A stretch of DNA of 64,000 nucleotides from Glutinoglossum americanum (Eukaryota; Ascomycota; Geoglossomycetes; Geoglossales; Geoglossaceae), in contig JAGHQL010000093.1 of NCBI GenBank assembly GCA_020080175.1, forward strand, positions 38,818 through 102,817, in the 5' to 3' direction. Shown piece after piece: positions 5,601 through 52,585 of the stretch. A program made the translations under genes and the position numbers. Position 1 is the stretch's first letter. The number at the start of each line of letters is the position of its first letter. The notes beneath the pieces were generated by a model. The model saw nothing but the letters and a program-made list of their open reading frames with translations. It had not been told where the DNA came from and ran no database searches.

Positions 5601-5866
5601 TAGAGATACACCACCATGCGGGAATTGTTTGTCCGATTCGGCAGCAAATTAAGCCAAACCGGACAAAACGCTTCCGACTGCAGAGTCCATTTGTTTTGCG
5701 AGGTGTTTACGGAGTATGCCTCACGGCCTGCCAATCTTCGCACGCTTTGCTTAGCAGACGGCAAGACTGAAGGAGACGCAAACCTTCAGTTACTCTTGGA
5801 GGAATTTCTTGGATAATATCACCTCTCTTCTCGTGGTTCTAGGTAGCATGACTGCACGATTTCGCT

Positions 5867-8538
5867 ATGGATCCTTTAAGTGTCGCAGCATCGGTTGTCG
5901 GTTTACTTATTGCAGCAGGCAAGATGGCTCAATCGCTGAAGCAGTTGACCTCTTTGGCTGATGCGCCAAGTTCAGCAAAAGCTGTGCTTACAGAGATGAG
6001 CGACATGGCAGCAGCACTAGAACACCTTCAGGACTATCTAAATGGAACAACCAGCGTACCTGCCGGCCGTGGACAATTTATCCTGCTTGAACACGTAGTT
6101 GTAACTCTAACTGGATGCGTCACCACATACTCGGAACTCGAGTTAATCATCGACAGCGTTCACGTTGATCCTGAAATGGGTGCCTTCGACCGTATTAAGT
6201 GGGCCGTTAAAGAAAAGGAGATCCTGGACATTGTTCGGCGGATACAGAACCACAAATCTTCCCTCACATTAATGCTGACAATATTGCAATGGTACGTTCG
6301 ACCAACAGTTAATAGTCACCAACTTTATTCTCGAAAACGATTTAACATCGCCCTAGTAAATCAAATCAAGAGGCTGAAAACTCTATGGCGAGATTATGTA
6401 GTCTTATAGAGCGGGTCGCAAGAAGCAATGAGAATCTCTCATCGCGCCTTCACAGGCTAGAAGGGAGACAACTCTCACCCGATGCTGGAAATCCACCAAG
6501 CGTCCTGGGAGATGACAGCTCTACGATTCGTCCAGCAATAAATAATCGGACAGACCAAGTATCTATTACTGCCGCGACCCGCTCGGTTAGATTCTCCTTC
6601 GAGGAAACTTTACAATCATCCCGGGTCTACTTAAGATCCATGTTCCGCCACTCAGAATCATCCCTATCCAGCTCCGTACAGCGAGCTGCTGCCATTTCCA
6701 TGTTCTCATCGCTGAGTCTCGCAGATGTATCCAACATCTCAGTATTCTCACTGCCGATATACGCTATTGATATCAGCAATAGCTACTGGTATACATTTGA
6801 TCTAGGTGGGACGCAGCAAAACTCCCAGCTACAGGAAGTTCAATCACTCTCAGGGGACCGAGAAGTGGCGGCTTCTGTCAAGGCTCTCACCAGGGAAACG
6901 ACAACTGTCGGTGTTCCTCCTGTGGACGTATGGTGGGTCGAGCAGAGGATAGAGGCGACAGTCACTCGGGATTTTGTGTTTGCTAACCTACAGGAGGAGG
7001 AGCAGAAGTTCCTAGATGAGCCGCTGGTGTTTGGAGGCGGGCTTACAGACGATACGTATATTGAATGGATCTTGAAGAAGGCCAAACGAATATTTCTTAT
7101 ACTGAAGGAGTTGGGTGTAACAGATCGGATTCGCCTTATTGCTGATGACTCCTGGGACGACAGCGACCTTCCACTTCCCTTAGAGGCCATTAAGCGCCTT
7201 CAGCTTACCTACAGTAGAGATGGAGCCTTGGAGAAGAGATTTTATAAGATGCAGTTCAAATTCCTCTTACAAGAGATTAAAGAAGGGGAGCATATCGTAT
7301 TTGGAACCGATGAATTTATCCCCATTGAACCTGTCAACAAGCGTTCAGGGTTCACATTTGACTACACTGCTGAAAAAGTACATCTACCTGGGCGGCCAGG
7401 CGAAATTTACAAGCGGAGACGAATTGTCCTCAGTGGTGCTCCCGACAAAGCTCCAGAAGAGGACTTCATTGCCAAGATACAAGTAATGAAGTCCGCGGTA
7501 CACCCGCACATCGCCCCGTGGGCTTCTTACACATACCGGGGGTATGGATACATACTTCTAAAGTCGGTGAGCGATGTCAGTCTGAAGGATTTTATCCGGT
7601 TTACCCCTCAGCAGTTCAAGATTCTCCGGGAGCGGGAGCGGCAGTTAACCTTATTAACTTGGCTACACTGTCTTGCGAACGCGTTGGCATTCCTCTACCG
7701 ACATGGCTTAACCCATGAAAATATCAAGCCTTCAAACATTATGATCGATGAGTCAAATAACATATTCTTTACAGACATTTTGGCGTTTAAGTGGGGAGAC
7801 GCCGATAAGGAGGCCTCTGGGATTGAATCGTACGAATATGGAGCCCCGGAGAGATGGGGCCGGACATGGGTTATCTCCAAACCAAGCCTCACAAAACACC
7901 GTTCTGGTGGGGAAGCTTCGTGGAAAAGGAATTCGGATACTTCAACTTCTAGTGGCCCTTCGATATCTACGAATACCTACTCCTCCAATCCCCCGACCGA
8001 GCCTTCAGTCGTCTATATCGACTGGCAAAATAACACTCCCGATTTCCAAAAATCAGATGTGTTCTCCCTCGGCTGTATCTGGCTAGATATTATGACCATC
8101 CTCCTCAAGCGAAAGAGCACCTCCTTCTCCTCCCATCGATCCGCTAAGAACAAGAAGCCTGGTATAGGCGGAGGCCTTCCAGACATGTCTTTCCATGCAA
8201 ATATCGGCCAACTGGAGTCATGGATAGGATTACTCAAGAGAGACGCATCGAAGAAAGAAGATAGGATCTTCCGCTTTGTGCCTTCCATCCTCGCCCTCAC
8301 ACAATCCATGCTCTCAAGAGACCCGAATATTCGTCCTAGGCCGCACGAGTGTGAGGAACTCCTCCACCGGGTACTAGCTAGTGCCCTGTTCCCTGAGATA
8401 ACACACTGCGACACTCAACAGTTGGCCGAGGGCGATTGGGAGTTTGGCAGTCCGTCGTCAGCTGAGGGTTCGGACACCATATCAACACCGAGACAGTCTG
8501 CAGTGTCCAGCTTTATTACAAAGCGTCTCTTTGTGTGA
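5867..8538 (+). CDS. HeLo-like N-terminal domain plus pseudokinase
   Basis: Two exons, 5867-6291 and 6357-8538 (intron with GTACGT donor, CCCTAG acceptor, phase 2), give 868 residues. The first 140 residues start MDPLSVAASVVGLLIAAGK, the typical opening of the fungal N-terminal helical domains found on STAND proteins (HeLo-like/PigL_N group). A variable region of about 290 residues follows. Residues from about 480 form a kinase fold: HPHIAPWASY in the N-lobe, HENIKPSNIMID at 595-606 in place of HRDIKPSN, TDILAF at 614-619 in place of DFG, then YGAPERW and SDVFSLGCIW in the C-lobe. The catalytic Asp of HRD is Asn and the DFG Phe-Gly are Ile-Leu, so catalysis is probably lost. A helical-bundle domain plus a pseudokinase is the layout of the animal and plant necroptosis executor MLKL, suggesting a membrane-acting cell-death protein; this is inference. 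Confidence 0.82.
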
Positions 8539-42220: not shown

Positions 42221-45200
42221 ATGGCAGAAAAGACGTCCTTAGGGACATCTCCCCCGCCTCCTCTCAAGCTTTTAGCCCTTGGTAAGTATCGATTCGCTCC
42301 GATACGGTTCAACGGTCTTTATTCAGCAAACTTGTAGGGGGCTTACATTCAATCGCTGTGCAGATGGTGGCGGTGTGCGAGGTCTGGCAAGCCTTATCAT
42401 TCTCAAATATTTGATGGAGCAATTGAGCCATGGGGAGAAGGAGACCCTCAGGCCGTGCGAGTACTTCGATCTTATCGGGGGAACAAGTACCGGAGGGTAA
42501 GCAGCACTCCGTGGAATGCCCCCTCATAGCATATAGGAGTGCTTCAATATAAATACAGTAAAAAAAAGAACTTTATTGATCTCTAGAATTCTAGGCTTAT
42601 CGCTATTATGCTCGGCCGCCTTCAAATGGATGTTGATACTGCTATCCAGCAATATATCGAGATGTCCAAGATCGCATTCCAGCGGAAGAGGTCAAGCGCT
42701 AATGTCCTTGGCCGTATGAACGATTTCTACAAAGTCAAAGGGACGTATTCGTCGGAAGGGCTCACAGGTATTGTGAAAAAGCTGGCCGAGGAGAAATCAG
42801 TTGAGAAAGATGCTGAGGCGAAAATGGAATTGGCAATGACGGCTGCAGACAGTGTTGATGAGATAAAAGTTCGAGAGACAAAGGAGCGCTGTAGGACCTT
42901 CGTTTGCTGTTTTACAAAGGGGCTCAACACTCCAAGGTTAATACGGACATACAAACAGCCCTTTGAAGTCAGAAGTCTCTCACTTCAGGACTGCACTATC
43001 TGGCAAGCAGCCCGTGCAACATCCGCTGCAGCATCATTCTTCGACCCCATCACAATTAGCCGCCAAGAATTCGTCGACGGCGCCACCGGGATGAACAACC
43101 CCGTCGAAGTTGTGCTTGACGAGGCACGCAATATCTGGCCTGATGCCATATCTAGAATCCAGTCTATCGTGAGCATTGGAACTGGAAGGGCAGATCTGAA
43201 GGGTTTTGGAGACAACGTAAATGAGGTCATTGAAACTTTGAAGAGCATCGCCACGGAGACTGAAAACACAGAAAAGCGATTCTTCAAAAGTCACAAGCTC
43301 ATAGGTCTTGAAGGCCGCTACTTCCGATTCAACGTTGAGCAAGGCCTGGGTGACGTGCAGCTTGACGAGCATGAGAAGACCCCCGAGATAGAAGAAGCGT
43401 CCGAAGCATACCTAGGGCTCCCTCGGACAAGTGAAGATGTGCAAGCATTTGTCAAAGCCCCTCGTCCGGATTACTGTACGTACCTTTAACAAATCCTCTC
43501 TTACCATTCTGAGAATCTGGCGGCGTTTATCATTTATGCGTGACGTCTTTCTTCTGGAGAGTCAAAGGGACTTAAATCACGTCAATAGCAGCATAGACTT
43601 CTGGCTCTTTTAGATAAGCCGTCAGAAGTTCAAAACTCTGCTTTGATGCTTCAGAGATGGAGACACTGGGATATTTAAGTGCGGAAGGGATAGCTTCATC
43701 TTTTAGAAAAATAAACGCCAACGAGCCAAAGGATACCCTAACCTTCCATCACGGCATTTTCAGATTCTGATCATTCTTATTCTTAGTGCCTCCACTCAGC
43801 GGTGATGCGAAAGATAATGCGTTAAAATGGTTGACTGAGAAAACCTCTGATACCTCCAGTCTACATAACAGAAACCGGAAAATGAAGACAGAGGGTACAG
43901 GAGCTTGGTTCTTGGACGCTGAGTTTAATCGCTGGAAGACGGCTCCTCGGTCTTTTCTATGGCTACACGGTAAAGGCAAGATAACTCATCCTTTATTTTC
44001 ATTTCTGTGAAAACATTAATGATTTTTATTCTAACAGTTGGTTGCGGGAAATCTGTTCTCTGGTAAGGAAATTGAATACCAACTCCACAAACTCTATTGA
44101 TTTGGTCTAGCTCGAATGTTATCGAAAATATCGGAGAGCAGAGGTTAGGTGCACTCACATACTTCTATTTTAACCAGCAAACCGGACGGCAAGATTTCGA
44201 GTTGATGTTGGCCTCACTTTTAGTACGGCTTGTCCGAGGGCTCGTACAACCTGACAAGCAACAACAAAATCTATTCCGATTGCCTCGCGCGTTTCACGAC
44301 CTCTACAACCGGTACAAGCTAGATTCCGAACCTCCCATTGAAGAGCTGCGAGCCGCATTTATCAGTGTTGTGGCAGAGTCCAAATCAACATATATTGTGA
44401 TTGATGCTCTAGACGAATGTCCGGGACGGAGAGATCGTAAAGATATTCTTGAGTTCCTCGCCACTGTTGTGGACGTTGCATCAAGCAATGCGCACATTTT
44501 AATCACAAGTCGCCCAGAGGGCGATATCTCGACAACGATGAACAGTCTGTCGCTTCCGTCTGGATTGATTCAAGTCCCGATTCAAAATAGCCAAGTCGAC
44601 GGCGACGTCAAGAAACATGTGCAAAAGTGGGTAGCGGAGCACTCCGATTACAACCAATGGGGGGTTGATATCCAAGAGCTCATCATTTCTGAGCTGACAG
44701 CAAAATCCAACGGCGTATTTAAATGGGTGGAATGCCAATTGAACGCCTTATACAGCCAATTGAGGATGGTCGACATACGTGATGCTCTGAAAGAGCTGCC
44801 GGAGGACCTTGACGAGACTTACAGCCGGATCCTCCTCAAAATAGATAGGATGAAATACACCAAAGCGGCTAAAGCTACCCTGCAATGGCTTGCCTTCTCC
44901 GAGCGGCCCTTAACAGTTAATGAAGCAGCCGAAGTTGCCGCTCTCAAGCTGGATACAGAGTCCCCAAATACCGAACCTTGTTCCTCGAAGTTCGAACCCG
45001 CCGACAGATTCACACCAGAACAGATCCAAAAAGTCCTATCCCAACTTGTCGCCGTATCTGGGAGCAATTCCGAGATCACCTTCGCACATTTCTCCGTCAA
45101 GGAATATTTGAAATGTGAAAGGGTGTGGCCAAAATCATTTCAAATACAGGAGAGTGCTGCCCAATGGTTCATTCTCGAAGGTTGCCTCGCTTACCTTCAA

Positions 45201-48200
45201 CATTACGATAAAACTCCTAAAGGAGTCGGTTTAGAGCGATATCCTCTTCTCCTTTACGCATGCAAGTATTGGTCACATCATGCAATAGCATTGTGCTGTG
45301 ACAACAATCAAGATGTCATAAAAAGGCTGGCTGAACTCCTGGCCAAGTTCAATGGCCCAACTTTAACTTTATCTACGAGAGTAGTACTTGGCCTTAAGCG
45401 TCGTCGGTCTCCCGAGAAGCTACAAGCCATCTTGTCACACTGGTTTAAAGACAACCCATCTCATATCGTGTTACCATTCGTCCTGCACGACAGTCTTAAA
45501 GCCTATTCATATTCGAGCTTCATTGGGAGGCCCGAATTCGACTTCGAGAGCGGCTTGGCACTTTGTGCGGCCTCCGGTGCCGGCGAAAAAGAACTGGTCA
45601 AATTACTACTTACCGGCGGCGCTAACGTCAACGCGGTGGATAGCGAACGAAGGGCTCCGCTGCACTACGCAGCACGGAGCGGGCATGAGGAAGTCGTGGA
45701 GATGCTGCTCCAAGGAGAAGCCAGCATCGAAATGAAAGACAACGTGAGGGGCACACCGTTAGCCAGCGCAATCGAAAATGGATCTAGGGGGGTTACCAAG
45801 CGCTTACTTGAGAGAGGTGCCAATGTAAACTACCACTATATACCAATTGTAAGTGGGACCCAGCCCCCCCTTCCAATCCTATAGGTCAATGGCTGACGCC
45901 TGCGTCCTTTGCTATTGCAGGAGGTAAGTCAAACCCTCGCCCTCGCTCTTCCCCCTCCATCCCTCTGGATCGATGGCTGACGCCGGCCTCCTTTGCTATT
46001 GCAGTTTGTAAGTCGAACCCTCGCCCTCGCCCTTCCCCCTTCATCCCTCTGGATCAATGTCTGACGCCGGCCTCCTTTGCTATTGCAGGTGGTAAGTCGA
46101 ACCCTCGCCCTCACCCTTCTCCCTCCATCCCTCTGGATCAATGGCTGACGCCGGCGTCCTTTGCTATTGCAGGTGGTAAGTCAAACCCTCGCGCTTCCCC
46201 CTCCATCCCTCTAGATCAGTGGCTGACGCCGGCCTCCCTTGGCTATTTCAGGAGGTAAGTCGAACCCTCGCCCTCACCCTTCCCCTTCCACCCCTCTGGA
46301 TCAATGGGTGACGCCGGCCCCCTTTGCTATTGCAGGTGGTAAGTCGAACCTTCGCCCTCGCGCTTCCCCCTCCATCCCTCCGGATCAATGGCTAACGCCG
46401 GCCCCCTTTGCTATTTCAGGATGTAAGTCGAACCCTCGCCCTTTCAATCCCCCGGATCAATGGGTGACGCCGGCCTCCTTTGCTATCGCAGTTTGTAAGT
46501 CGAACACTCGCCCCCGTCCTTCCCCCTCCATCCCTCTGGATCAATGGCTGACGCCGGCTCCCTTTGCTATCGCAGTTTGTAAGTCAAACCCTCGCCCTCA
46601 GCCTTCCCCCTCCATCCCTCTGGATCAATGGCTGACGCCGACTCCCTTGGCTATTGCAGGGGGTAAGTCGAACCCTCGCCCTCGCCCTTCCCCTCCATCC
46701 CTCTGGATCAATGGCTAACGCCGGTCTCCTTTGCTATTGCAGGCGGTAAGTCGAACCCTCGCCCTTCCCCTTCCATCCCTCTGGATCAATGGCTGATGCC
46801 GGCGTCCTTTGCTATTGCAGTTGGTAAGTCGAACCCTCGCCCTCACCCTTCCCCCCCCATCCCTCTGGATCAGTGGCTGACGCCGGCGTCCTTTACTATT
46901 GCAGTTTGTAAGTCGAACCCTCGCCCTCGCCCTTCCTCCTCCATCCCCCCGGATCAGTGGCTGACGCCGGCCTCCTCTGCTATTGCAGGTGGTAAGTCGG
47001 ACCCTCGCCCTCGCCCTTCCCCCTCCATCCCTCTGGATCAATGGCTGATACCGGCCTCCTTTGCTATTGCAGGTGGTAAGTCGAACCCTCGCCCTCACCC
47101 TTCTCCCTCCATCCCTCTGGATAAATGGCTGACGCCGGTGTCCTTTGCTATTGCAGTGGGTAAGTCGAACCCTCGCCCTCGCGCTTCCCCCTCCATCCCT
47201 CTGGACCAATGGCTGACGCCGGCCTCCTTTGCTATCGCAGCGGGTAAGTCGAACCCTCGCCCTTCCCCCCCATTCCTCTGGATCACCGGCTGACGCCGGC
47301 ACCCTTTGTTATTGCAGCGGGTGAGTCGAATCCTTGCCCTCACCCTTCCCCCTCCATCCCTCTGGATCAATGGCTGATACCGGCCTCCTTTGCTATTGCA
47401 GCGGGTAAGCCGAACCCTCGCCCCCTTCCCTCTCCCTCCATACCTCTGGATCAATGGCTGATACCGGCCTCCTTTGCTATTGCAGGTGGTAAGTCGAACC
47501 CTCGCGCTCGTCCTTCCCCCTTTATCCTTCTGGATCAATGGCTAACGCCAGCGTCCTTTGCTATTGCAGGTGGTAAGTCGAACCCTCGCCCTCGCCCTCG
47601 CCCTTCCCCCTCCATCCCTCTGGATCAATGGCTGACGCCGGCCTCCTTTGCTATCGTAGTTGGTAAGTTGAACCCTCGCCCTCGCCTTTCCCCCCTCCAT
47701 CCCTCTGGATCACCGGCTGACGCCGACGTCCTTTGCTATCGCAGGCGGTAAGTCGAACCCTCGCCCCCGTCCTTCCCCCTCCATCCCTCTGGATCAATGG
47801 CTGACGCCGGCCTCCTTTGTTATTGCAGTTGGTAAGTTGAACCCTCGCCCTTGTCCTTCCCCTTCCATCCCTCTGGATCAATGGCTGATGCCGGCCTCCT
47901 TTGCTATTGCAGTTTGTAAGTCGAACCCTCGCCCTCGCCCTTCCCCTCCATCCCTCTGGATCAATGGGTGACGCCGGCCTCCTTTGCTATTGTAGCGTGT
48001 AAGTGAGCCCGATTCTGGCCGACCAAATTTCTGTTAAATATAGTCCTTAGAAGCCGCTGTCACGTGCCGCCGAGGCAGGGCACGAGGCGGTGGTGCGACT
48101 GCTCATCGAGAAGGGAGCCGACGTCAAGGCGGAGGACGGTGGTGGAAGGACGGCGCTCCACAGGGCCGCCGAGGCAGGGCACGAGGCGGTGGTGCGGTTG

Positions 48201-48314
48201 CTCATCGAGAAGGGAGCTGACGTCAAGGCGAAGGACGGTGATGGAAGGACGTCGCTCCACAGGGCTGCCGAGGCAGGGCACGAGGTGGTGGTGCGGCTGC
48301 TCAAGTCCGCTTGA
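42221..48314 (+). CDS. Patatin-NACHT-ankyrin NLR with microexon array
   Basis: Main exons: 42221-42281, 42364-42496, 42595-43475, 43787-43975, 44038-44062 (25 nt), 44111-45848 and 48051-48314. Patatin domain, residues about 15-300: ALDGGGVRGL, GGTSTGG with Ser62, WQAARATSAA, and Asp226 in VDGATGMNNP. NACHT ATPase from about 365: Walker A GKVGCGKS at 420-427, Walker B YIVIDALDECPG, sensor ILITSRPEGD, and a C-terminal winged-helix/arm region ending HFSVKEYL. Ankyrin repeats begin near residue 920 and resume in the last exon. The Walker A motif is complete only if the intron at 43976-44037 uses a GC donor (AAAG-GCAAGA); the GT donor six bases upstream would delete Gly-Lys. Between the ankyrin exons lies the 2.2-kb splice-site array listed next; without microexons the protein has about 1096 residues, with all 26 about 1122. 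The role inferred is ligand sensing by ankyrins, oligomerisation by NACHT, and membrane lipid hydrolysis by patatin. The 311-bp gap at 43476-43786 could hide a further exon. Confidence 0.85.
45849..48050 (+). repeat. Tandem intron array with 26 single-codon microexons
   Basis: A minisatellite of about 26 units, 13 of them 84 bp between successive donors, range 72-90 bp. Each unit contains a donor (GTAAGT in 24 junctions, GTGAGT and GTAAGC once each), a pyrimidine-rich stretch, a branch-like CTGAC/CTAAC/CTGAT, then CTATTGCAG or a variant (24 CAG, 2 TAG). After every acceptor come exactly three nucleotides and then the next donor; this holds at all 26 junctions (first at 45921-45923, last at 47996-47998). 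The trinucleotides vary: GTG 7, TTT 5, TTG 3, CGG 3, GAG 2, GCG 2, and GAT, GGG, TGG and CGT once each; none is a stop codon. The upstream exon ends in phase 0 (45848) and the downstream one begins in phase 0 (48051), so each triplet would be one codon. Several unit lengths are not multiples of three, which argues against the array being a coding repeat and for splice-signal spacing being what is preserved. Confidence 0.85.
48066..48314 (+). repeat. Near-identical 99-bp ankyrin repeats
   Basis: Two and a half direct copies with a 99-bp period (starts 48066, 48165 and 48264), each coding RAAEAGHEAVVRLLIEKGAD and then VKA plus a variable turn (EDGGGRTALH or KDGDGRTSLH). The copies differ at only a few bases, mostly in the turn. 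The last copy is truncated, ending VRLLKSA and stop. High identity between repeats is typical of recently expanded, rapidly diversifying fungal NLR sensor domains. Confidence 0.9.
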
Positions 48315-49375: not shown

Positions 49376-49698
49376 TCAACTTTGTATTCTTAAATCTCAG
49401 AATTATTAACCCGAGACTACCCAAGATTGTATGCGACTACTCACTGTAGATAAGTTATCTGATAACTGCCCACGTCCCGAGGCTAAAGCGGAATTAACCC
49501 CAAAAACTTTTAAGCCCGTCTATTGGGTGTTTGCACGTGACTGGGAGATCGGGATATCGTTCCGTTTATGGAGGCAGCCTAGTGGCCGAGTGAGAGAGCT
49601 GGCAAGGCAGACTGGGGAGGCAGTGGGTGCTGCACGGAACGGCATCATGAGACAGCCCTCCTCTTTTTATATTATGATTTATTCGCATCTTGAAGGAC

Positions 49699-52585
49699 AT
49701 GGATCCATTAACATCGCTATCGGTCGCAGGCGCCATCGTGCAGTTCGTAGACTTCGGTTGTCGATTGCTTGCGGAAGGGCGAGAGCTATATCGGTCGACG
49801 ACGGGGGTCCTGACGGCCAATGAAGAACTCGAACTAGCTACAACAGACCTTCGTGCACTCGTCAACAAGCTTCGTCACTCCTTCACTGGACCGTCATCTG
49901 AGGTGTCCCAATGTTTTACGAAGGAAGACCAAGAGCATCGACGGTACTTCGATACCATTTGCGACGAGGCTGTAAAAGTCGCGGAGGAGCTCATTAGAAG
50001 ATTAGATAAACTGAAGCTGAGAGGGTCTGGAAGTCGGGAATGGAAGAGCTTCCGGCTGCTGATTAAAGGAGCTTGGTCTAGAAATGAGGTGGCCAGCCTG
50101 ACAAGGCGACTGTTAGACCTGAGGAAGGCACTAGAAACCCGAGTATTGTTCGCTATTAGGTGACTAATCTCTGTATTATAACTAATTTTCCCAATCGTGC
50201 CTAACCAGCTTTAGGGAGAATCTTGATGCTGCCTCTATCCGTTTGTCTGCACGCTTCGATGCACTTGATGAACAGACACAACGCATCATTTCGACCTTGC
50301 TTAACAACAATACAGTATTGTCTCAAGAGATCACAGTCACACTCTCTCAGATTGTTAATCGTCTTGAAGCTATCAACGAGGAACAGCACAGGCGGGCTCG
50401 TGATGTGATTCTTGAGAGATGGCAGCGCAGAGCCGAACCTGGCAATATTTATGATATTACTGCGAGCGTAGAATTACTCAGTGTTTCGTCGGAGGAAGAG
50501 GATAAATTGCGAAATGCCATCCAAACAGCTATTCTCGAGAGTTTGAAATTTCCTACAATGACAAATCGGTACGAGGACGTGGTTGATGCCTACCCTGAAA
50601 CCTTTGAATGGGCTTTTCACGATTCGAACGAAGACCGGTATCGAAAGGATTTTCACGAATTGAGCGAATATCAGTCCCCAAAAGGTTACCGTGACCTGGA
50701 CGAAGAAGATTCCTCATGCAACTCTCATGATTCGAAATGGTTCCCATGGAGCAGCTTGCCGAACTGGCTTAAAAAGGGAAAAGGCGTGTACTGGATCCAT
50801 GGAAAGGCCGGTTCGGGAAAGTCGACGTTGATGAAGCATATATTTGATGATCAGCGAACACACAAATATCTTTCGTTTTGGGCCCGGAACGCGTTTCCAC
50901 AAGAGGCACCTCTATGTCTCGCAACGTTCTTCTTCTGGAATAGTGGGACAAAAGAACAAAAGTCCCAAATGGGGCTGCTCCGCGCTCTTCTCTTCCAGGT
51001 CCTGGAACAGTACCCCGACCTCATCCCAGTCACGTTCCCGGCGATTTGGGCCCGCCGATATTCAAGGGCTGTCAAGTCCATACCATCGGTATCGACGGAA
51101 TCATGGTCTCTGCGGGGATTATCAGCAGCGTTGAAGACCCTTCTTCAACAGACAAGCCTGCCACTTAATATCTGTTTTCTGATAGATGGACTCGATGAAT
51201 TCGGAGGCGATCATGAGGATATCGCAGACCTATTCAAAGATGCGGCGAATTCGCCCTGCGTAAAGGCTTGTTTATCTAGTAGGCCATGGGTCGTGTTTGA
51301 GGACAGCTTCCGCGATTGTCCGAGTATGCGACTTCAGGATCTCACCCGCAGAGACATCGTGCATTATGTCACAGACAGATTCCATCGAAACAGTGCATTC
51401 CAAAGACTCGAAGCAAAAGACCCCGGGCCAGCTCTCGCACTTATACACGAGATTGTTGGCAAGGCAGATGGCGTATTCTTATGGGTCCGAATCGTGGTAA
51501 AGTCTCTTTTGGACGGGATTAGAAATCTGGATGCCATCCCGGATTTATGGATGCGGTTGCGTCTTCTCCCGCGAGAATTAGAGCCACTCTATCAACATCT
51601 CTTGGCTTGTATCGAGCCTGTTTATCTACTTTGGGCGTCGAAGGCCTTTCAAATTCTTCGCACTTCCCGAGAGCTCAATACTGAACCTTTCGGGGATCCT
51701 CTGCCACTGGACGCGGGATCGGCCCTCGGCGTCAGGCCCCTGTCAATCCTAGCCCTCTATCTTGCTATGAATCCAGGGATTGATGTTATGAATAGCCCCG
51801 AGCTTGCAACCCAAGTAGGCATCAATGCGAGATGTCAAGAAACCCAAATCCAATTAACAGCCCGCTGTGCCGGTTTGCTAGAAGTCCCACTGCTGAAAGG
51901 CCAAAAGAAGATTCGGCAGGATTCTCTAGTGCAGTATTTGCACAGGACTGTTCGAGATTTTCTTGAAACCGATGCTCAGTGGTCTGACTGGTTAGCTCAT
52001 ACAGCTACGACCGACTTTGATCCCTGCCTGTCTATGATGCACTCCTCGATCCAACATCTCAGGATTGTTTTTCGCGAATACTCCGGCAAATCCCACCTCG
52101 GCCGCGACATGAGGATAATAAACTCCCTTGCAGCAGACACCATGGCCTATGCGTTTTGCGCTGACTCGAGAGGCACTAATCACCAAGCCGAGTTTGCAAT
52201 GCTTGATGATTTGGAGGAGCTCATGACTTTCTATGCTAGTCCCTTACACGCCGGTGTCATTCGCCACTGGAGTCAGAGACTTATTGCTGTAGTAGAGAGT
52301 GAGCAGCCCCAAATGGAGTTTCTAGGCCTCGCAACAATCTATTGTTTGGCTGCATATGTTGAGGAGAAGCTGAAGCAACGCTCATCGTCTGAAGCAAAAG
52401 ACGCGGCGATTGATCTAATGCATCATCTTTACTCGCGTCCTTATAAACACATGCTTACATGCAGTGTGCCCTCACAAACGGCGGCAATAGAATCTTTGTT
52501 GAGTTCAATTTGTGCAGAAGATCTCATGGAGATCGAAGGGAAGCTGGAGTCGCGTATGATCACATATCCGATTGATGTCGATTAA
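49699..52585 (+). CDS. NACHT-domain STAND protein
   Basis: Exons 49699-50159 and 50215-52585 (55-bp intron, GTGACT donor, TTTAG acceptor, phase 2) give 943 residues. The N-terminus (MDPLTSLSVAGAIVQFVDFG, then RLLAEGRELY) is the helical domain common on fungal NACHT proteins. The NACHT module has Walker A GKAGSGKST at residues 350-358, preceded by GVYWIH, Walker B NICFLIDGLDEFGG and a sensor ACLSSRPW. A helical region follows, with KADGVFLWVRIVVKSLLDG and a DUF7791-like segment after it (SILALYLAMNPG, VQYLHRTVRDFLE). No C-terminal ankyrin, WD or TPR repeats are present, so this is a short NLR-like protein, possibly sensing through its C-terminal helical part or acting as a partner. ATP-driven oligomerisation is the expected mode; the effector output of the N-terminal domain is unknown. 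It lies 1.4 kb downstream of the patatin NLR. Confidence 0.9.

Follow-up and report, generated by a model that had tools for sequence, protein, structure and literature searches.

The window analysed here is a stretch of 64,000 nucleotides of the Glutinoglossum americanum genome (Geoglossomycetes; assembly GCA_020080175.1, contig JAGHQL010000093.1, positions 38,818 to 102,817 of the forward strand), and it carries on its plus strand a NOD-like receptor (NLR) gene of patatin-NACHT-ankyrin type that runs from an ATG at 42221 to a stop at 48314. Between two of its ankyrin repeats the gene is interrupted by a tandem array of short introns that enclose predicted exons of exactly 3 bp, each bounded by splice sites; there are 26 of these in the window and 15 in a paralogous gene on another contig, C290. 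An initial annotation, made from the letters alone, had drawn attention to the array and had called its host gene an NLR, an assignment borne out by the Patatin, NPHP3_N and Ank domains (Pfam) that fall in one spliced frame across 42221–48314.

Six exons precede the array (42221–42281, 42364–42496, 42595–43475, 43787–43975, 44038–44062 and 44111–45848), and when joined they form an open frame of 3027 nt with zero stops that includes LWLHGKVGCGKSVL. The second and third make up the patatin-like phospholipase part (42364–43475; PF01734, E=2.5e-9 on 42587–43489), an N-terminal domain that this continuous frame joins to the NACHT-ankyrin portion. A GC-AG intron follows at 43976–44037, where reading GCAAGA...CAG puts LWLHGKVGCGKS back in frame, and directly behind it lies a 25-nt exon (44038–44062) that holds most of the NACHT P-loop, whose motif GKVGCGKS spans the junction and is present in the spliced frame. 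The sixth exon (44111–45848) encodes the NACHT domain and the first ankyrin repeats, ending in phase 0 after ...GANVNYHYIPI; Pfam places NPHP3_N, a domain of NACHT kind (E=2.2e-17), and ankyrin repeats (Ank_2, E=8.9e-18) on 44076–45848. Beyond the array, a 3' exon reading KPLSRAAEAGHE... (48051–48314) is open to the stop that ends at 48314 and encodes further ankyrin repeats (48051–48311; Ank_4, E=8.7e-24). Judged from its sequence, the NLR gene is apparently intact.

The public protein, FGG08_004552, has 1003 residues and ends ...NYHYIPI-VSGTQPPLPIL, a read-through of the first array intron; the 3' ankyrin exon is therefore missing from the public annotation, and the model lacks the 25-nt P-loop exon as well. 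The case illustrates how an automated gene model may stop short at the first intron of such an array.

Architecture of the array

Scanning the array region (45849–48050) by script recovered 26 YAG-NNN-GT junctions on the plus strand (45918..47993), spaced 72–90 bases apart with a mode of 84. This is the count and spacing that had been described at the outset, and Tandem Repeats Finder agrees with it (45886–48004; units of ~84 bp, each an intron plus one codon; period 84, 25.5 copies, 84% matches). The 27 introns are 52–87 nt long, some of them not divisible by three, while the gap of three nucleotides stays constant, as the initial annotation had also observed. Donors are GTAAGT in 25 introns, GTGAGT in one and GTAAGC in one, acceptors are CAG in 24 and TAG in three, and both splice dinucleotides are kept, as claimed, at 26 of 26 junctions (GTRAGY donors, YAG acceptors). 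Although the search pattern itself requires YAG and GTRAG, the chain has no missing member (the spacing never exceeds 90), and therefore no broken junction was overlooked. A branch-like motif had been reported before each acceptor; 23 of the 27 introns have CTRAY starting 28–29 nt from their 3' end, but the other four lack it, three of them having GTGAC at that place and the last intron neither.

The first array intron (45849–45920) resembles the repeat units in its 3' half (its 3' 34 nt against the interior introns, mean z 9.8) and not clearly in its 5' half, and it is followed by the first microexon, GAG, at 45921–45923. In order, the 26 microexons (45921–47998) read GAG TTT GTG GTG GAG GTG GAT TTT TTT GGG GCG TTG TTT GTG GTG TGG CGG CGG CGG GTG GTG TTG GCG TTG TTT CGT. 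Behind the last of them (CGT, 47996–47998) comes an intron of 52 nt (47999–48050) that lies outside the repeat and whose 3' end is unlike those of the interior introns; the last intron of the C290 array is likewise 52 nt long and, by eye, similar to it.

The exons on both sides of the array are in phase 0 in the spliced frame, as had been proposed. The accompanying suggestion that any subset of codons might be used stands in so far as every codon could be skipped in frame, but the last codon occupies an ankyrin consensus position, and keeping an intron is a different matter. When retained singly, 24 of the 27 introns carry an in-frame stop and the remaining three are not a multiple of three long; in the three full arrays of the genome (58 introns, one with an assembly gap) none is both a multiple of three and stop-free. 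Retention of any one of them would therefore break the frame.

A scan of the genome (25.77 Mb, 317 contigs) with a paired-junction pattern gave 33 forward and 12 reverse matches, as compared to 1 and 0 for the reversed pattern; the array is not a product of chance. The 45 matches fall on four contigs: 23 on C311 (the window's array), 11 on C290, 10 on C197 and one on C178.

Counting linkers by eye places the codons within the ankyrin domain. Four other ankyrin linkers of the gene, those counted, have 8 residues from the N-x-N-like end to the next P/A/S-L; across the array the flanking exons alone give 7, and the last microexon, CGT (Arg), makes 8 (NVN-YHYIPI-R-K-PL), as in the other repeats. 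This residue falls on the Arg of the familiar ankyrin motif G-R-T-P-L. The array of the C290 paralog also ends in an Arg codon (CGA), followed by T-P-L. Because Arg restores the standard repeat spacing and both arrays end in it, the last codon is probably the founder. The direct join of 45848 to 48051, which the initial annotation had treated as the empty form, does not fit this picture, since the linker would then lack one residue and the consensus Arg would be gone. Lying between two ankyrin repeats, the other 25 codons would lengthen the inter-repeat loop, the exposed 'finger' edge by which ankyrin domains bind partners.

Diversity of codons and introns

Mean pairwise diversity per column was 0.551 in triplets and 0.111 in introns for C311 (25 units), 0.654 and 0.106 for C290 (13 units), and 0.762 and 0.270 for C197 (14 units), so that triplet diversity exceeds intron diversity by a factor of ~3 to 6 across the three arrays. 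Left out of these counts were the last intron of each array, the first one of both C311 and C290, and the C290 unit that contains a 10-N assembly gap. No three-column intron window reached the triplet mean (0/73 in C311, 0/66 in C290 and 0/73 in C197), and a pooled rank test on 9 versus 228 columns gave P 2.9e-7, a rough value since columns in one array share history. The GT and AG columns beside the triplet are invariant in all three arrays; donor bases three to six are more variable in C197 (up to 0.36) than in C311 and C290, where they change little. Even where the introns of two units are at most 6% apart, the triplet differs in 12 of 13 pairs (C311) and 13 of 15 (C290), against an equal-rate expectation of 12–15%; the pairs are not independent, and C197 has none this close.

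Distinct codons, moreover, tend to specify distinct residues: 10 codons give 9 residues in C311, 7 give 7 in C290, and 11 give 11 in C197 (column shuffle, P 0.011, 0.12 and 0.08; combined 0.005). Broken junctions number 0 of 55 in the three full arrays versus 2 of 9 in a relic array on C178 (P 0.018), the relic having been counted by eye with one shifted acceptor that still yields a valid 3-nt junction. The introns are alike within an array and only 62% alike between C290 and C311, which argues for a turnover that homogenizes the units. As the codons stay different through this turnover, selection on the residue would be the best explanation, and hence translation. Together, the high triplet diversity and the distinct residues suggest translated, diversifying codons. 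The DNA supports translated codons and diversification between units, and fits constitutive and selective inclusion alike. Codons that diverge while their introns stay alike form a signature for which DNA sequence suffices as a test, with no need of RNA.

Other arrays, relatives and the origin of the units

The arrays described here are a minimum for the genome. The array on C290 (minus strand, L041) lies in a paralogous NLR gene, with its 15 triplets at the same site as those of the window. This paralog is 47% identical to, and stop-free over, residues 361–1008 of the window's 5' part; its patatin part is 52% identical and holds five stops within two gapped or poorly aligned stretches, which are probably introns. 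An assembly gap of 10 N falls within the C290 array (L041 reverse complement, about 1127–1136), and the unit count may be off by at least one. On C178 (L038) a relic array stands ahead of a 3' ankyrin exon, with GTAAGT donors in 6 of 9. The guess that the patatin part is also present there was not borne out: tblastn (E 1e-3) found no match to the gene's 5' part within 9,491 bases.

Beyond these, six paralog pieces (L043–L048) were examined among 116 matches listed. In one of them (L044, contig C82) the match is confined to the ankyrin part, which has one in-frame stop, and a decayed relic of two units comes after it. An array scan of the six pieces found no array-like chain on the gene strand, a scan that misses short decayed arrays such as the C82 relic; on the opposite strand of L047 a single chain of two junctions with weak donors turned up, which we took as chance.

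The array on C197 belongs to a predicted non-NLR gene (L039:8449–9711; C197:13448–14710) that consists of an ATG at 8449 opening a 32-codon exon, 14 one-codon exons in phase 0, and an exon with a Cys codon and the stop. The first exon begins, by eye, like a signal peptide, and both end exons and two of the 14 triplets carry Cys codons, four cysteines in all; we infer that this is a gene and that its product is secreted. No relative of the first exon was found in its genome, and its frame (50 residues, the last 18 being intron read-through) had no protein-database match. In the DNA search the C197 introns matched only the C197 array, and on this ground the array looks like an independent invention, suggesting that the device is not tied to NLRs.

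As to how the units arose, the 3' halves of the interior introns match that of the first intron in the same array (mean z 9.8 for C311 and 8.2 for C290) and do not match that of the last (0.2 and 0.5). DNA searches with the array introns found copies only in their own or related arrays and none elsewhere, within a reach limited by the skipping of very common words; even the C290 array, at 62% identity, was missed by the C311 query. Local tandem duplication would be the simplest account of these sequences, and it agrees with the origin from tandemly duplicated intron units that the initial annotation had put forward. Dispersed introners, which would leave near-identical copies scattered through the genome, were considered and rejected, since within that limited reach no copies were found outside the arrays.

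A protein search with the window's 591-residue part found 310 proteins; the following figures come from the 120 matches listed. Eighteen align to residue 587 or later, one of which is the window's own protein. Twelve others (P0002–P0008, P0010–P0013, P0017) end 9–55 residues past the break, with V-S or V-G there, which is what read-through of a phase-0 GT donor would give; two of them come from Trichoglossum hirsutum, one each from Geoglossum simile, G. umbratile and a Vezdaea acicularis metagenome-assembled genome, and seven proteins are of metagenomic source. The remaining five (P0063, P0068, P0072, P0085, P0094) are remoter ankyrin proteins that continue through the site. Back-translation by eye resolves the tail of P0010 (G. 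simile) into two array units with CAG-NNN-GT steps, and the tails of P0013 and P0004 (T. hirsutum) show one such step each. The break point is thus common to relatives; at least one species has apparent array units, and a second has single steps. The 120 also include three NACHT-ANK proteins of Tuber aestivum, at 28–31% identity.

Two further proteins deserve mention. At the array site P0009, from a metagenome, has ~54 uninterrupted low-complexity residues, rich in Y, H, D, C, F and P, and then V-S-E, like the start of the window's last intron; its N-terminus looks like intron read-through and it is therefore probably genomic. Loss of the introns from an array, or else a trinucleotide repeat, could account for this stretch. 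P0028, a patatin-NACHT protein of Fusarium oxysporum f. sp. vasinfectum, ends ...YGCLPARVSNDESLFIG near the array site, which could be a phase-0 donor read-through hinting at an older break point. Among viral contigs no relative of the window protein or of P0009 was found.

Elsewhere in the window, a second NACHT gene (49678–52585) lies directly downstream of the array gene, with NPHP3_N and DUF7791 on 50186–52585 and no Pfam match in the frame 49678–50163. Reading frames at 5852–8538, which may belong to a single gene, carry a protein kinase domain and a weak match to PigL_N that falls below the cut-off, and at the left end (607–1527) lies a fragment resembling patatin, whose E of 4e-5 does not reach the Pfam cut-off.

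Interpretation and comparison with known systems

We consider it likely that the locus holds a working array of short introns and one-codon exons in a patatin-NACHT-ankyrin NLR, where it would diversify an ankyrin loop. Given a GTAAGT donor and a branch-like motif in nearly all of them and YAG in every one, the introns would most likely be removed one after another, adding the codons to the loop between two ankyrin repeats, where the added residues may take part in ligand binding. A typical transcript would include most or all codons, and skipping would give further variants. The array may have grown by local tandem duplication around the founder codon, the ankyrin consensus Arg, with unit turnover keeping the introns alike and selection for new loop sequences, more than any mutational process, driving the codons apart. 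If the codons are translated, evolution could edit a binding loop residue by residue via intron duplication.

Several observations weigh against this account. The distinct-residue test is significant singly in C311 only, and stop-codon depletion is not significant (0 among 55 triplets, where 0.76, 0.31 and 0.72 would be expected in the three arrays). Runs of identical neighbouring triplets are not significant either (P 0.053, 0.15 and 1.0), and triplet identity is uncorrelated with the similarity of the flanking introns; a history of duplication followed by divergence is therefore not directly visible. Mutation could account for part of the hypervariability. For the interior introns, the 5' halves show no clear derivation from either end intron. 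Ank_2 scores, finally, barely separate the possible forms, at 35.3 bits with all codons skipped, 35.9 with Arg only, 35.6 with two codons and 32.6 with all 26.

A stronger version of the working-array reading, compatible with it, would have each cell or transcript use a subset of the codons, one gene then giving rise to many receptor forms. Each codon is skippable without frame change, near-identical donors and acceptors offer the spliceosome many equivalent choices, and alternative splicing of 3-bp mini-exons is described for Tuber melanosporum in later papers. Selection for codon diversity between units, however, needs no alternative inclusion, and the four cysteines of the short predicted secreted peptide on C197 make better sense with all codons included; we hold this version to be plausible, if short of what we would bet on. 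The converse reading, in which a minisatellite is removed whole as one long intron (45848 to 47996 or 48051) with its internal signals as passengers, draws on the commonness of passive duplication in tandem repeats and on the canonical ankyrin spacing of the Arg-only form. Passive copies should vary equally, though, whereas the triplets vary ~5 times more than the introns, GT and AG stay invariant by the triplet while other intron columns drift, and broken junctions appear in the relic and in none of the full arrays; we regard it as unlikely. Somewhat more unlikely still is hypermutation, in which error-prone repair at the boundary of the repeat units, or another process of mutation, would scatter the triplets without selection. 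It would explain triplets that are far more divergent than the flanking introns and uncorrelated with them, but the adjacent AG and GT are untouched, a sharpness hard to obtain without selection, the codons avoid synonymous duplicates (combined P 0.005), and C197, an array of unrelated sequence, has the same pattern.

The remaining alternatives change the nature of the triplets or of the introns. Had introner-like elements inserted between the codons of a pre-existing loop, the triplets would be old coding sequence, variable codons among near-identical introns would be explained at once with no need of diversifying selection, and the ~54 extra uninterrupted residues of P0009 could be seen in the same light. 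Yet no intron copies were found outside the arrays, within the search reach described above, and five other NACHT-ankyrin paralog pieces (of the 116 matches listed), inspected by eye in translation, show no long loop; introners are not known to insert at exactly every codon boundary, and we find this account improbable. That the repeats are a coding minisatellite read through unspliced is highly improbable: long stop-free frames do cover parts of the array (46227–46718, 46667–47293 and 47248–47751), but they are in another register, ending where unit lengths change, and a protein-database search with the frame at 46667–47293 found no relative. We rejected this candidate because the gene's own frame does not continue through the repeats, being closed at 45884 by a stop twelve codons into the first intron.

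Several known systems share single features with these arrays. Fungal introner-like elements are many near-identical short introns dispersed over many genes; near-identical short introns are common to both, whereas the Glutinoglossum copies were found only in local arrays. Dscam-type clusters are tandemly duplicated alternative exons in an immune-related receptor, a setting like that described here, but the Glutinoglossum exons are just one codon long. Schistosome micro-exon genes encode secreted proteins from many tiny same-phase exons and resemble the C197 gene only; their microexons, like those of aphid bicycle genes, are longer than one codon and are not known to stand in tandem arrays of similar introns. 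The bicycle genes, in the available text of PMC9168663, likewise share with C197 alone a predicted secreted protein made from many tiny same-phase exons, but those exons are nearly all in phase 2, while the 14 small exons of C197 are in phase 0 and exactly 3 nt long. In the coding repeats of fungal NLRs, as the available text of PMC9815663 describes them, recombination keeps repeats alike while a few recognition-domain residues diversify, a likeness to the present arrays; there duplication copies the entire coding repeat, in Glutinoglossum an intron together with a single codon.

The closest counterpart is the nank family of T. melanosporum, to which the initial annotation had likened this gene, a comparison upheld by four papers that, in the text available, all credit Iotti et al. 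2012. Two of them mention alternatively spliced codon-sized microexons in this expanded family (PMC4986451, PMC3689799), a third dozens of 3-bp mini-exons in NACHT-ANK genes (PMC9815663), and a fourth 3-bp microexons (PMC10197012). An abstract in which the word truffle does not occur (PMC11121469) states that functional microexons are undescribed in filamentous fungi. Among the papers that library searches on Glutinoglossum and Geoglossum NLRs and microexons listed, none concerns such arrays by title or abstract, and the available text of the literature citing Iotti et al. 2012, an original that may hold more, does not mention triplet hypervariability or a secreted-peptide array.

The Glutinoglossum array is genuine, looks functional and belongs to a kind that is known yet rare; new here are the diversification of the codons relative to the introns and the independent C197 array. 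We tentatively suggest that codon-sized microexon arrays are a general, repeatedly invented ascomycete device for short hypervariable peptides, found in the ankyrin loops of NLRs and in the mature part of the C197 product, in which the intron unit would serve as a recombination substrate for adding, removing and shuffling codons and transcripts may also sample subsets, so that a single gene could supply many forms of receptor or ligand. As far as the accounts of nank go, both systems are NACHT-ankyrin NLRs of filamentous ascomycetes with dozens of 3-bp exons; alternative splicing is reported for Tuber, whereas the Glutinoglossum array is known from DNA alone. Tuber belongs to the Pezizomycetes and Glutinoglossum, where the gene has a patatin N-terminal domain, to the Geoglossomycetes, and a little-followed truffle observation is thereby carried to a second class of ascomycetes.

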